A stretch of DNA of 64,000 nt from Stenotrophomonas maltophilia (lineage in GTDB: Bacteria; Pseudomonadota; Gammaproteobacteria; Xanthomonadales; Xanthomonadaceae): contig NZ_CP033877.1 of NCBI RefSeq assembly GCF_006970445.1, positions 3,542,750 through 3,606,749 of the forward strand, written 5' to 3'. Below the pieces are notes generated by a model, which saw only the letters and a program-made list of their open reading frames with translations, was not told the DNA's origin and searched no databases. Below, piece by piece: positions 15,194-48,991 of the stretch. The translations under genes were made by a program, and so were the position numbers. How positions within the stretch are numbered: position 1 is the stretch's first letter; every line of letters starts with the position of its first letter.

Positions 15194-15375
15194 GGCGAGG
15201 CACTGTGGGTTTGCGGGGACGCCGTAAACCCCCCTCCGGGGTCCGGCCCAGCCGCTGGCGGCTGTGCGTTCGGGCGCTTGCGAAGCGGTGCTTCGCAAGC
15301 AAAGCACCCTCACCCATGGGGGCTTGGTCGCGGCATCCATGCCGCTCACACCCCGCAAACCCACAGTGCCCCGCC
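15194..15375. repeat. Three-way-junction element E1 (solitary, with inserted core)
   Basis: The outer arms at 15194-15218 and 15351-15375 (GGCGAGGCACTGTGGG... and its complement) pair at nearly all of 25 positions. Next to them are the family core GACGCCGTAAA on the left and GGCATCCATGCC on the right. About 80 extra bases split the first inner hairpin and themselves contain a hairpin, TTGCGAAGC...GCTTCGCAA. Left of it are CAGGGCTGCGCCCTG and a CAACAGCAACAGC tract; right of it is CTTCGACAGTTT. This is the only unpaired member of the family. The rest of the 386-bp gap to the Rieske gene holds only these flanks and SMAG repeats. Confidence 0.8.
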
Positions 15376-15402
15376 TTCGACAGTTTCACGCGGCTGGTGG
15401 TG

Positions 15403-15491
15403 GGTGCCGACCGTTGGTCGGCACGGATCTCGCTCTGGTAGCTGTCGACCTTGGTCGACACGGCTTTTGTAGAGTCGAGCCGTGCTCGACT
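15403..15491. repeat. Cluster of three SMAG-type palindromes
   Basis: Three different short palindromes stand in a row: GTGCCGACC-GTT-GGTCGGCAC (15404-15424), GTAGCTGTCGACC...GGTCGACA (15438-15460) and GTAGAGTCGAGC...GCTCGACT (15469-15491). The last two carry the GTAG head. They represent separate SMAG subfamilies side by side, between the convergent permease and Rieske genes. Confidence 0.8.
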
Positions 15492-15501
15492 GCTTCTGGC
15501 C

Positions 15502-15837
15502 TCAGGCCAGATAGACCTGCCCATCACGCACGTCCACCGGCACCGCACGCAGGCGGTCGCCCTTGCACGGGCCGGCGATGCAGTCACCACTGTCCAGCGC
15601 GAACGAGGCGCCGTGCGCGGCGCACACCAGATGACCCTCGCGGCTCTTCAGGAATTGCCCCGGCGCCCAGTCCAGACGGCGGCCAGCGTGCGGGCAGATG
15701 TTCAGGAACGCGCGCACCTGCTCGCCGTCGCGGTACAGCACCAGCGATTCGGCATCGCCATCGACCACCGCTTCGACCTCGGCAAACGTGCCATCGGCAA
15801 TGGCATCAAGGGCGATCAGGGCAGCAGCGGCAGTCAT
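15502..15837 (-). CDS. Rieske [2Fe-2S] ferredoxin-like protein
   Basis: A 111-aa soluble Rieske protein. The cluster ligands are visible as C48-x-H50 (NICPHAGRRLDW) and C72-x2-H75 (CAAHGASF). Length and layout match the small NirD-like or dioxygenase-ferredoxin class. The ATG at 15837 is chosen because the upstream extension is unlike the family. No oxygenase or reductase gene is adjacent, so its electron partner is unknown. Its 3' end faces the E1/SMAG cluster. Confidence 0.9.
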   Translation of the reverse strand: MTAAAALIALDAIADGTFAEVEAVVDGDAESLVLYRDGEQVRAFLNICPHAGRRLDWAPGQFLKSREGHLVCAAHGASFALDSGDCIAGPCKGDRLRAVPVDVRDGQVYLA

Positions 15838-15912
15838 GGCGAAGGCTCGGACAGTAAACCGGCATTGTCGCACGCCCACTCAGGTGACTGGCTGCGACAT
15901 GAACACAAGTCA

Positions 15913-15940
15913 TTGATCCGTAATAAGCACAGGCTATATT
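15913..15940 (+). promoter_or_regulatory. Sigma70-type promoter of the small membrane protein gene
   Basis: TTGATC and TATATT are separated by 16 nt in a conspicuously AT-rich stretch, with transcription expected to start near 15947. The only downstream gene is at 16016. Confidence 0.6.
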
Positions 15941-16015
15941 TAACGAGTTTTTCACTCAATGACAGTGGCGCGTCCCGATACTCTGGTTTCGCTGATCCCA
16001 GCCTATCGAGCCGCC

Positions 16016-16297
16016 ATGTTCAATCGCGCATCCGCCTTCAACCAGTTCCGCACCCTGTTCGCGCCGCGCAAGCCGCGTCACCCGCTGGTGCGCGTTGCCG
16101 TGGGCCTGCTTGGCCTGGCGATCCTGGCGGCGATGGTGTTCATCGGTGTGTTCGTCGGTGCGGCGATGATCCTGGTCGGCCTGGCGTGGAAGCTGCTGGC
16201 CTCGCGCAAGCCGGGCGTTGCCCGTCCGGTCGACCCGACCGTGGTCGAAGGCGAGTACCGCGTGGTGCGCAAGCCGGTGTTGCCGGCCTCGCGTTGA
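16016..16297 (+). CDS. Small single-pass or two-pass membrane protein
   Basis: A 93-aa protein with one long hydrophobic stretch (about residues 27-62), probably one or two membrane helices, between a basic N-terminus and a basic tail ending PVLPASR. An earlier ATG at 15959 is in frame, but the start at 16016 has a GAG site just upstream and follows the predicted promoter with a normal leader. No homologue or function is recognised. Confidence 0.65.
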   Translation: MFNRASAFNQFRTLFAPRKPRHPLVRVAVGLLGLAILAAMVFIGVFVGAAMILVGLAWKLLASRKPGVARPVDPTVVEGEYRVVRKPVLPASR

Positions 16298-16351
16298 TCC
16301 AGGCCTTCCGCGCCCGCTGACGGCGGGCGCCATGCGTTCTAGACTGCCGGC

Positions 16352-47660: not shown

Positions 47661-47779
47661 GTTCTCAAGCTCCTGCGGCCGCGACAGGTGCGGCGGGATG
47701 GATAGGGCCCACAAGTCTAGCAAACCGGGGCTGGCCACCGTGGGCCCGCCGGGGCCGGCAGCAGGCCGGCGGACAGGAT

Positions 47780-47793
47780 TTGATCCGGATCAA
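47780..47793 (+). promoter_or_regulatory. Perfect FNR/Anr box upstream of ompW
   Basis: TTGAT-CCGG-ATCAA matches the FNR-family consensus at every conserved base. Its centre is about 67 bp before the ompW ATG, leaving room for an FNR-activated promoter (site at -41.5) starting near 47828. E. coli ompW is controlled by FNR, so activation under low oxygen is expected here. It could also affect gap, which is divergent. Confidence 0.8.
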
Positions 47794-47853
47794 AGCGTTA
47801 GCGCGGCGTGAGGCCGACACTGGCCCCATCCACCCAGCAACGAGAACACCCCC

Positions 47854-48483
47854 ATGCGCAAGAGCTCCCCCCTGATCGTGGCCAGCCTGGCCGCCGCCCT
47901 GTCGCTCGCCGCCGCCCCGGCCATGGCCCAGTCCAAGGGCGACTGGACCGTCTCGGCCGGCGTCCACCAGGTGGCGCCGAAGTCGAACAACGGCTGGCTG
48001 GCCGGCGGCACCCTGAAGGTCGACGTCGACAATGACGTCAAGCCGACCATCACCGGTGAGTACTTCATCGCCGACAACCTGGGCATCGAAGTGCTGGCCG
48101 CGCTGCCGTTCAAGCACGACATCAACATCAACGGCCTGGGCCGCGTGGGCAGCACCAAGCAGCTGCCGCCGGTGGTGACCCTGCAGTACCACTTCAACAG
48201 CAAGGGCAAGGTGTCGCCGTTTGTGGGCGTGGGTGTGAACTACACGACCTTCTTCAGCGAAGACACCACCGGTGCGCTGGCTGGCAGCAAGCTGAAGCTG
48301 CAGGATTCGTGGGGCCTGGCCGCACACGCCGGCGTGGACTTCGCGATCGGCGAGAAGGGTGCCCTGCGCGTGGACATGCGCTGGATCGACATCGACAGCA
48401 AGGTGAAGTTGAACGGCGAGAAGATCGGCACGGTCAACATCGATCCGCTGGTCTACGGCGCGTCCTACGTCTTCAAGTTCTAA
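47854..48483 (+). CDS. ompW: Outer-membrane protein OmpW
   Basis: A 209-aa eight-stranded barrel. The signal peptide ends AMAQ; the mature part shows GDWTVSAGVHQVAPKSNNGWL, PTITGEYFIADNLGIEVLAALPF, VVTLQYHFNSKGKVSPFVGVGVNYTTFF and the terminal VYGASYVFKF with C-terminal Phe. OmpW proteins form narrow channels for small hydrophobic molecules and are induced in anaerobic or stress conditions. The FNR box upstream fits. A strong terminator follows, so the gene is monocistronic. Confidence 0.94.
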   Translation: MRKSSPLIVASLAAALSLAAAPAMAQSKGDWTVSAGVHQVAPKSNNGWLAGGTLKVDVDNDVKPTITGEYFIADNLGIEVLAALPFKHDININGLGRVGSTKQLPPVVTLQYHFNSKGKVSPFVGVGVNYTTFFSEDTTGALAGSKLKLQDSWGLAAHAGVDFAIGEKGALRVDMRWIDIDSKVKLNGEKIGTVNIDPLVYGASYVFKF

Positions 48484-48550
48484 GCGGTGTGTTGAGCGCG
48501 GGGGCTTCGCCCCCGCTCCCCCGTTACACGCAAAACCCTCGCAGCATGTT

Positions 48551-48580
48551 GCCCCGGTGATTGCCGGGGCTTTTTTTTGT
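48551..48580 (+). terminator. Intrinsic terminator after ompW
   Basis: GCCCCGG-TGATTG-CCGGGGC is followed by eight T. About 50 nt upstream another GC hairpin (GCGGGGGC-TTC-GCCCCCGC, near 48497-48516) comes first. Confidence 0.92.
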
Positions 48581-48609
48581 TTGTGCGAAAAGCACCGGCT
48601 TCTGGAACT

Positions 48610-48715
48610 GGGCGGAGAGGGTGAGGTGATCGGGACACGCCGTAAATACGTCCCTGTAGGCTCGATCGCCGCATCCATGCGGCGAACGGTCCCGATCACC
48701 TCACCCTCTCCACCC
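48610..48715. repeat. Three-way-junction element E6
   Basis: The arms GGGCGGAGAGGGTGAGG... (48610-48636) and ...CCTCACCCTCTCCACCC (48689-48715) pair at 26 of 27 positions; the one exception is a G.U pair in an RNA read from the minus strand. Core: GCCGTAAA, TAC-GTCCCT-GTA, GGCTCGATC, GCCGCATCCATGCGGC. It pairs head-to-head with E7, 170 bp away. Between them is a triplet-like and GGTAAGAGCAGAAGC-rich stretch with no gene. Confidence 0.88.
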
Positions 48716-48885
48716 CTCCGATCTGCGCGCGCGTGCCAGCTCAAGCAAAGGTAAGAGCAGAAGCAGAACCTGTGCATCCGAGGCGTAGTGGTTGCCTGCA
48801 ATTGCAGGAGGCAGGTTTTGATCCTGCATTTGATTTTGATGTTGCCTTTGACCTTTGCATCCGCCTCTGCGGCACTGTCTGGAGG

Positions 48886-48991
48886 GGAGCGCAGCGGGAG
48901 GGGCGGTGGGACCGTTGGCGCCATGGATGGCGCCATCGAGCCCCCATGGATGGGTTTACGGCGTGTCCCGCTGCCCCTCCCGCTGTGCTCC
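48886..48991. repeat. Three-way-junction element E7
   Basis: The arms GGAGCGCAGCGGGAGGGG... (48886-48912) and ...CCCCTCCCGCTGTGCTCC (48965-48991) pair at 24 of 27 positions. The three exceptions are all G.U wobbles in a plus-strand RNA. The inner core is the same as E3: GGCGCCATGGATGGCGCC, ATCGAGCC, CCC-ATGGAT-GGG, TTTACGGC, although the arms differ. It ends 57 bp before the nuclease gene. Confidence 0.88.

Follow-up and report, generated by a model that had tools for sequence, protein, structure and literature searches.

Seven copies of a palindromic repeat in Stenotrophomonas maltophilia belong to a gammaproteobacterial family that includes YPAL/RU-2

The stretch of DNA analysed here (the window) comprises 64,000 nucleotides of Stenotrophomonas maltophilia (assembly GCF_006970445.1, contig NZ_CP033877.1, positions 3,542,750-3,606,749) and belongs to a genome of 4.55 Mb in a single contig, designated G000. 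It carries seven copies, E1 to E7, of an element in which a conserved two-hairpin core is enclosed by copy-specific arms that pair with each other. In Stenotrophomonas, they represent a family of non-autonomous palindromic repeats that extends across the Gammaproteobacteria and has YPAL/RU-2 as its named member. The arm mismatches are strand-asymmetric, which is new in this analysis, and the survivors are the mismatches that are stable on one strand, namely the one that carries TTTACGGC. A folded single DNA strand is favoured as the explanation over an RNA of the 3' untranslated region or a neutral upkeep of palindromes, and the chances that the TTTACGGC strand in folded form is the working form are judged to be about even.

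The opposite, GCCGTAAA-bearing strand is referred to as the core strand. All seven copies described in the initial annotation were found in their places when the sequence was read again, and they are listed here with their Watson-Crick arm pairs as counted by local alignment:

E1, 15194-15375, plus strand: singleton, long hairpin-1 variant with about 80 nt extra at roughly 15232-15313; 26 of 28 pairs
E2, 32308-32409, plus strand: left partner in pair P23, core from 32335; 25 of 28 pairs
E3, 32573-32676, minus strand: right partner in P23; 25 of 26 pairs
E4, 42005-42110, plus strand: left partner in pair P45; perfect 27-bp arms (27 of 27) at 42005-42031 and 42084-42110
E5, 42306-42409, minus strand: right partner in P45; perfect 26-bp arms (26 of 26)
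E6, 48610-48715, plus strand: left partner in pair P67; 26 of 27 pairs, one C.A mismatch on the core strand
E7, 48887-48990, minus strand: right partner in P67; 25 of 28 pairs, three A.C-type mismatches on the core strand

Each copy thus has a stem of 26-28 aligned pairs, closed by the core. Hairpin 1 of the E2 core reads GCC-GTAAA-TAC-GTCCAT-GTA-GGC, with a 5-nt bulge, and is followed by a short linker and by hairpin 2, which has 5-7 bp and the loop ATCCAT; the general form of the core has a GTRAA bulge and two hairpins whose loops read NTCCNT. The exact core GCCGTAAA, which had been described as common to all copies, is present in E1, E2, E3, E6 and E7 (five of seven), while E4 has GCCGTGAA and E5 has GCCGCAAG. 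Likewise, the arms of E4 and E5 are perfect as claimed, and those of E3 contain one C.A near the outer end. The four mismatches of E6 and E7 are indeed all of the A.C type on the core strand, which is equivalent to G.T or G.U on the other, and the three of E2 (two T.C, one T.T) cannot be converted to G.U. Six of the seven copies form three inverted '+-' pairs (P23, P45 and P67) with gaps of 161, 194 and 170 bp, an arrangement that the initial annotation did not mention. The long hairpin-1 variant of E1, the extra segment of which is partly palindromic, occurs at five loci in four genomes: window 15221-15340, L095 (G017, at the place of E4), L102 (G011, at the place of E2), L115 (G000 near 3435665) and the G008 ortholog of 3761626.

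The proposed three-way junction with covarying stems is upheld by alignment shuffles, by the reassignment of arms in G040, a genome of the same order outside the genus, and by predicted DNA folds. A gapless alignment of 19 copies, made up of 14 of the 22 G040 copies of 106 nt and five of the seven window copies, served for the covariation test that had been suggested: 95.5% of the cells are paired, against 64.2% after shuffling, two-sided changes occur in 33 of 40 pairs, and none of 500 shuffles reaches the observed value in any measure. When the partner is slid by 1-3 columns, pairing falls to 35-45%. For 25 copies selected by their core alone in 400 kb of G000, the mean score of the copy's own arm is 24.5 and that of foreign arms 12.3, and 0 of 2000 permutations attain the observed own-arm pairing; some foreign arm outscores the own arm in 6 of the 25, because arm alleles recur. 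Among 43 copies of G040, the Watson-Crick fraction is 0.953 with own arms and 0.498 with arms reassigned, and the own arm is strictly the best partner in 40. Single-strand DNA folds predicted for four copies on both strands contain the junction (z-scores -6.1 to -11.8), with hairpin 1 taking a different fold in some copies. The statement that only the pairing is kept is nearly true in G040 and class-wide; it is too strong for Stenotrophomonas, where the arms are recurring alleles with a G-rich 5' side and a median left-arm identity of 0.67. An origin of the arms by insertion into ready-made palindromes is not supported, because the Stenotrophomonas arms share alleles and the G-rich 5' side.

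The element had initially been left outside any known family. Its core is that of the Yersinia repeat YPAL/RU-2, for which a Y. pestis sequence is printed in a passage of PMC2759123. Positions 51-105 of RU-2, taken as the reverse complement, align with window 32332-32385 in E2 at 89.1% over 55 nt (E 1.5e-13), three further window copies match at E 4.9e-7, and all four alignments are confined to positions 51-105. Conversely, a covariance model, R1, built from six window copies (E2-E7, leaving out E1) recovers the Yersinia proxima copy L228 with 46.1 bits. These two matches make the window copies members of a wider family with YPAL as its named branch, and their membership in a YPAL-like superfamily is considered highly probable. 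Like the window copies, YPAL has the core inside one long palindrome and is intergenic; it differs in its length of 167-168 bp and in its own arms and ends, whereas the Stenotrophomonas copies are about 105 bp long and often stand in inverted pairs. The full YPAL unit with these arms and ends was not found among the window copies. RU-2 also aligns with many loci of other genera, mostly in the core only, and over greater length with L228 (85.6% over 167 nt), L338 (over 73 nt) and L342, an IMG/VR viral contig with a repeat that is 98% identical to published YPAL over the full length. Passages of earlier papers report YPAL from Yersinia and Erwinia carotovora, with target-site duplications of 3-26 bp (PMC2229807), and give three copies for E. 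coli (PMC2847712). No report of the family beyond Yersinia, Erwinia and E. coli was found in the open-licence literature, judged by titles and some passages, and the core strings gave no relevant match in the text of open-licence papers, judged by title. RU-3 of Delihas (103 bp) was considered as an identity and rejected, since its printed sequence differs.

A search of the whole window against Rfam, also proposed initially, returned a single tRNA match at gathering level and nothing else. With relaxed limits, RF02770 (Ysr224) reaches at best 30.5 bits (window 42000-42087), against a gathering score of 70, and several microRNA models outscore it there through the long hairpin alone; in 4 of 10 loci it scores 22.7-29.1 bits. 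The Ysr224 consensus contains the same core, on the GCCGUAAA strand, but the structure assumed by the model differs from the long-stem junction. TwoAYGGAY, which the loops had suggested, is absent from the Rfam matches listed for 42000-42420 on both strands.

The family is large and widespread. R1 gives E-values of 1.4e-22 to 1.8e-16 for E2-E7, the same six copies from which it was built, and finds E1, outside the training set, weakly (E 0.17). The many genomic matches anticipated for such a model were obtained: G000 holds at least 148 matches at E<=10, at least 130 of them at E<1e-6, both counts being lower bounds from 150 scored candidates. These matches fall into 97 clusters, 51 of which are '+-' pairs and 46 singles, with no '-+', '++' or '--' arrangement. 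Most of the pairs in G000 are 140-230 bp apart. Matches are present in 22 of 40 relatives besides G000 (19 of 24 within the genus; copy number counted up to 96 per relative), and outside the genus in the same order there are 45 copies in G040, 39 in G030 and 3 in G038. The core pattern occurs in 51 of 369 sampled Gammaproteobacteria genomes, with a maximum of 473 matches in G288; the reversed pattern, used as a control, gave one match in the 369. A scan of named genomes yielded at least 119 loci; the matches listed include Halomonas, Microbulbifer, Marinobacter, Shewanella, Methylomicrobium and others, and of the 80 titles among them one is Mycolicibacterium and the others read as Gammaproteobacteria. 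Viral contigs contributed 15 stretches with matches, and a search of plasmids with E2 found no match. One viral contig, L346, bears two copies 2.4 kb apart with a single open reading frame (ORF) of 354 aa between them.

If mutation were strand-symmetric, the paired counts of arm mismatches should be equal. They are not. Pooled as isolated distinct events with stricter flanks and read on the core strand, A.C outnumbers G.T (87 vs 28), C.C outnumbers G.G (21 vs 0) and T.C outnumbers G.A (35 vs 7), next to 6 T.T and 7 A.A; the direction is the same in all four pooled groups (36:13, 30:10, 19:3 and 58:9). A.C exceeds G.T in Stenotrophomonas (25 vs 11), in genus g7 (8 vs 4), in other genomes (13 vs 2), among distinct mismatches in G040 (29 vs 11) and in a class-wide set (50 vs 9) based on 92 of 124 elements with a second hairpin that fits the loop definition, 90 of them with arms of at least 12 bp. 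Wobbles are few on either strand: the 1118 arm cells of G040 comprise 1066 Watson-Crick pairs, about 35 A.C and 7 G.T on the core strand. From the viewpoint of the TTTACGGC strand, the mismatches that persist are G.T, G.G and G.A, with A.C, C.C and T.C as the rare types. The orientation of the events was fitted by a one-parameter model, with log likelihoods of -94.88 for DNA hairpin energies on the TTTACGGC strand, -108.96 for RNA energies and -132.39 for no bias; after removal of the A.C/G.T class (76 events left), DNA still fits better than RNA (-28.9 vs -39.8). The mismatch bias in every group and the energy fits therefore bear out the strand to which the initial annotation pointed. Its choice between a structured RNA and a DNA cruciform is narrowed, because folded single-stranded DNA accounts for the mismatch types better than RNA does, and the excess of A.C over G.T in every group is contrary to the G.U tolerance expected of a core-strand RNA. 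Related copies allowed 47 of the 204 events to be polarised: 16 G>A against 6 C>T, 7 T>C against 3 A>G, and 9 G>T against 1 C>A. These changes agree with selection, as they possibly would also with strand-specific cytosine mutation.

On the folded-strand reading, the TTTACGGC-bearing DNA strand, when single-stranded, most likely folds into the three-way junction, and a putative trans-acting enzyme for folded single-stranded DNA would recognise this junction via the core, perhaps much as REP, IS200/IS605 and integron attC hairpins are recognised. The arms would have to pair on the TTTACGGC strand only, so that they could drift freely while stable mismatches, as seen in the counts, bridge the sequence changes; the exchange of whole alleles between copies, a pattern also seen, would add to this drift-like variation. 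Passages of PMC8266576 provide a precedent for strand-specific recognition of folded single-stranded DNA, in that REP enzymes work on one DNA strand in its folded form and attC is used as a folded bottom strand. As a working analogy only, attC may be compared with the present family as a folded single strand of kept structure and variable sequence. GTAG REPs/SMAG with their RAYT (TnpA-REP) are likewise short, multicopy palindromes that often stand in inverted pairs; the window family differs by its stem of 26-28 bp with free sequence and by its two inner hairpins, and no GTAG tag was found at the arm ends, which form the stem base, among the window copies and the core-selected G000 copies. The terminal repeats of adeno-associated virus (AAV) and other parvoviruses are T-shaped, with a long stem and two small inner hairpins, and an HUH enzyme acts on them; their possible likeness to the window family is one of shape only.

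A more extended proposal is offered tentatively, with chances somewhat below even: that the repeats are, class-wide, T-shaped folded single-stranded DNA sites with two recognition hairpins, in which selection acts on the hairpin stability of one strand and leaves the arm sequence free, and that they are the substrate of a putative enzyme, unlinked to them and of either the HUH or the single-strand recombinase type, which would work even in genomes that lack a detectable REP transposase, with YPAL as one local branch. Placement in one family links Yersinia YPAL and an Rfam small RNA to hitherto unexplained palindromes from many genera, and the mismatch types alone offer a means of telling which of the two strands in a palindrome is the folded one, and in which form, DNA or RNA. 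Should the folded-strand reading be true, there is still a widespread DNA-processing enzyme to discover, for which the conserved core is the bait.

Several results weigh against a folded DNA strand served by an enzyme. The asymmetry could be mutational in origin, since more mutation of the TTTACGGC-strand cytosines would produce all three mismatch biases; the class that discriminates among the 47 polarised changes holds few events (7 T>C against 3 A>G), and mismatch events within one genus are not fully independent. A first run with DNA energies, in which G.T was forced to be unpaired, gave -123.39 and was worse than RNA; the second run is taken as the fair one because G.U could pair in the RNA run from the start. 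The third basal pair of hairpin 1 is paired in 6 and unpaired in 13 of the 19 aligned copies, and class-wide it is C-G in 72 of 124 elements and a T.C non-pair in 40. No clean insertion or empty site with a target duplication was seen among the orthologous loci viewed, where the differences resemble deletions and allele swaps. Finally, no mobilising enzyme was found, either by inspection of the two PF01797 genes of G000 or among the neighbour proteins of loci L214-L347. Family copies are absent from the flanks of both PF01797 genes, the largest related group among the 767 proteins from those loci spans 9 loci, and homologues of the two G000 transposases are absent from these proteins at E 1e-4. 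According to the list of genomes with matches, 9 of the 51 copy-bearing genomes have no NF047646 match at E<=1e-8, one of them being G343, which is 100% complete and has 71 pattern matches.

The surroundings of the window copies are as follows:

13268-15115, plus strand, citrate-transporter-like ORF, and 15502-15879, minus strand, Rieske-domain ORF: convergent, E1 between their 3' ends
31329-32084, minus strand: ORF without Pfam match, left neighbour of E2
32777-33760, minus strand: LysR-type ORF, its 3' end to the right of E3
40660-41841, minus strand: phosphoglycerate-kinase ORF, E4 on its start side
42479-44164, minus strand: DUF3999 ORF, its 3' end adjoining E5
47854-48483, plus strand: OmpW-like ORF, E6 downstream of it
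48551-48578, plus strand: probable terminator-like hairpin with T-run, between the OmpW-like ORF and E6
49043-49867, plus strand: S1/P1-nuclease ORF, E7 on its start side

Copies of the family are found preferentially at the 3' ends of genes. By uncurated gene contexts from the analysis's own gene caller, 18 clusters in the 400-kb stretch of G000 include 8 convergent, 10 tandem and no divergent ones, against 53 convergent and 51 divergent in a background of 289; 21 G000 loci, of which L005 is common to the 400-kb stretch, are convergent in 5 cases, tandem in 14 and divergent in 2. In G040, where the gene context of 44 of 45 matches was examined, 35 of the 43 elements with a called left neighbour are preceded, in core orientation, by a stop codon, which in 33 cases lies 6-46 nt away. 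Class-wide, 4 of 121 elements are inside an ORF, and of the 88 elements with both neighbours, 63 have a 3' end as the closest gene end, counting both orientations. De Gregorio and colleagues are said to have located YPAL at gene 3' ends as well, in 2006.

This placement supports an mRNA element, transcribed at gene 3' ends, whose RNA hairpin would protect or tune the upstream message, with selection on the RNA stem as the source of the arm covariation; the Ysr224 model is also of an RNA on the core strand, and the idea was put forward for YPAL in a passage of PMC2229807. It is nevertheless an unlikely explanation. The sense strand in G040 is mostly the core strand, yet the mismatches there are A.C and not G.U, and DNA energies fit the bias better than RNA energies. 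Genes with the stop codon facing the element are found class-wide on the left-arm side (50 of 103) and on the right side (59 of 99), so the core strand is not always the sense strand, while the mismatch bias keeps its direction. The terminator-like hairpin before E6 would allow transcription of E6 from the OmpW-like gene only by read-through, and the longest T-run within 45 nt after the G040 copies is 1-6, which is not like intrinsic terminators.

Slightly less probable again is a neutral upkeep, in which the arms would stay paired through hairpin-templated repair and gene conversion, either by templating one arm from the other or by substituting entire units, without any function under selection. 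Orthologous loci in G017 and G008, with flanks mostly 89-98% identical, and in other close genomes display what such processes could leave behind. At P45, P23, 3658464 and 3644273, different paired arm alleles occupy the same locus between the same outer flanks; at 3658464 arm and core alleles are exchanged as blocks with the outer flanks retained, and at 3644273 there is a double change C-G -> A-T in the arm. G022 has a chimera with mismatched arms at the E4 place of P45, and repeated deletions begin or end within palindromes, some of them fusing the left half of a copy with the right half of the other copy in the pair. Correction working on both strands, however, does not predict C.C 21 vs G.G 0 or T.C 35 vs G.A 7, and the core is conserved across the class.

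Very improbable is that the copies are a REP-like or terminal inverted repeat (TIR) family of S. maltophilia moved by a REP-type tyrosine transposase, such as the self-complementary TIR family in close pairs that a passage of PMC3733652 describes for ORF 1152: copy-bearing genomes more often have NF047646 matches (42 of 51, against 189 of 318 others, P 0.0016), but nine of the copy-bearing genomes have none, neither PF01797 gene of G000 has copies at its flanks, and the GGGGWSAS motif printed in that passage better fits another window palindrome, GGGGTCAG at 42180-42220. G000 has five NF047646 matches, and flanks were inspected for the two PF01797 genes; they consist of an unrelated 41-nt TIR at L032 and SMAG-type GTAG repeats at L033. 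The first gene, L032:1344-2193, encodes a 255-aa REP-type transposase (NF047646 72.5 bits, cut-off 80) with the 41-nt inverted repeat AAAAGGGGACGGAGGGG..., and the two together are possibly a TIRYT unit. Two widely spaced pairs of G000 were also considered. The '+-' pair at C1:1720270-1721349, with an 869-bp gap, was rejected as a transposase unit; it encloses an aldolase-like ORF, which we take to be KDPG aldolase. The pair at C1:4354523, with a 1046-bp gap, has no recognisable transposase among the listed ORFs, and no family search was made for them.

Two other kinds of repeat accompany the copies in the window. A separate palindrome family, GGGGTCAGATCC...GGATCTGACCCC, is present at 42180-42220 and 24448-24488, so that one member sits between E4 and E5, and it fits the GGGGWSAS motif as given in the passage of PMC3733652. 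Short repeats of the CAACAGCAAAAGC type, variable in length, flank several of the window copies, for example at 32270-32300 and 32700-32730.

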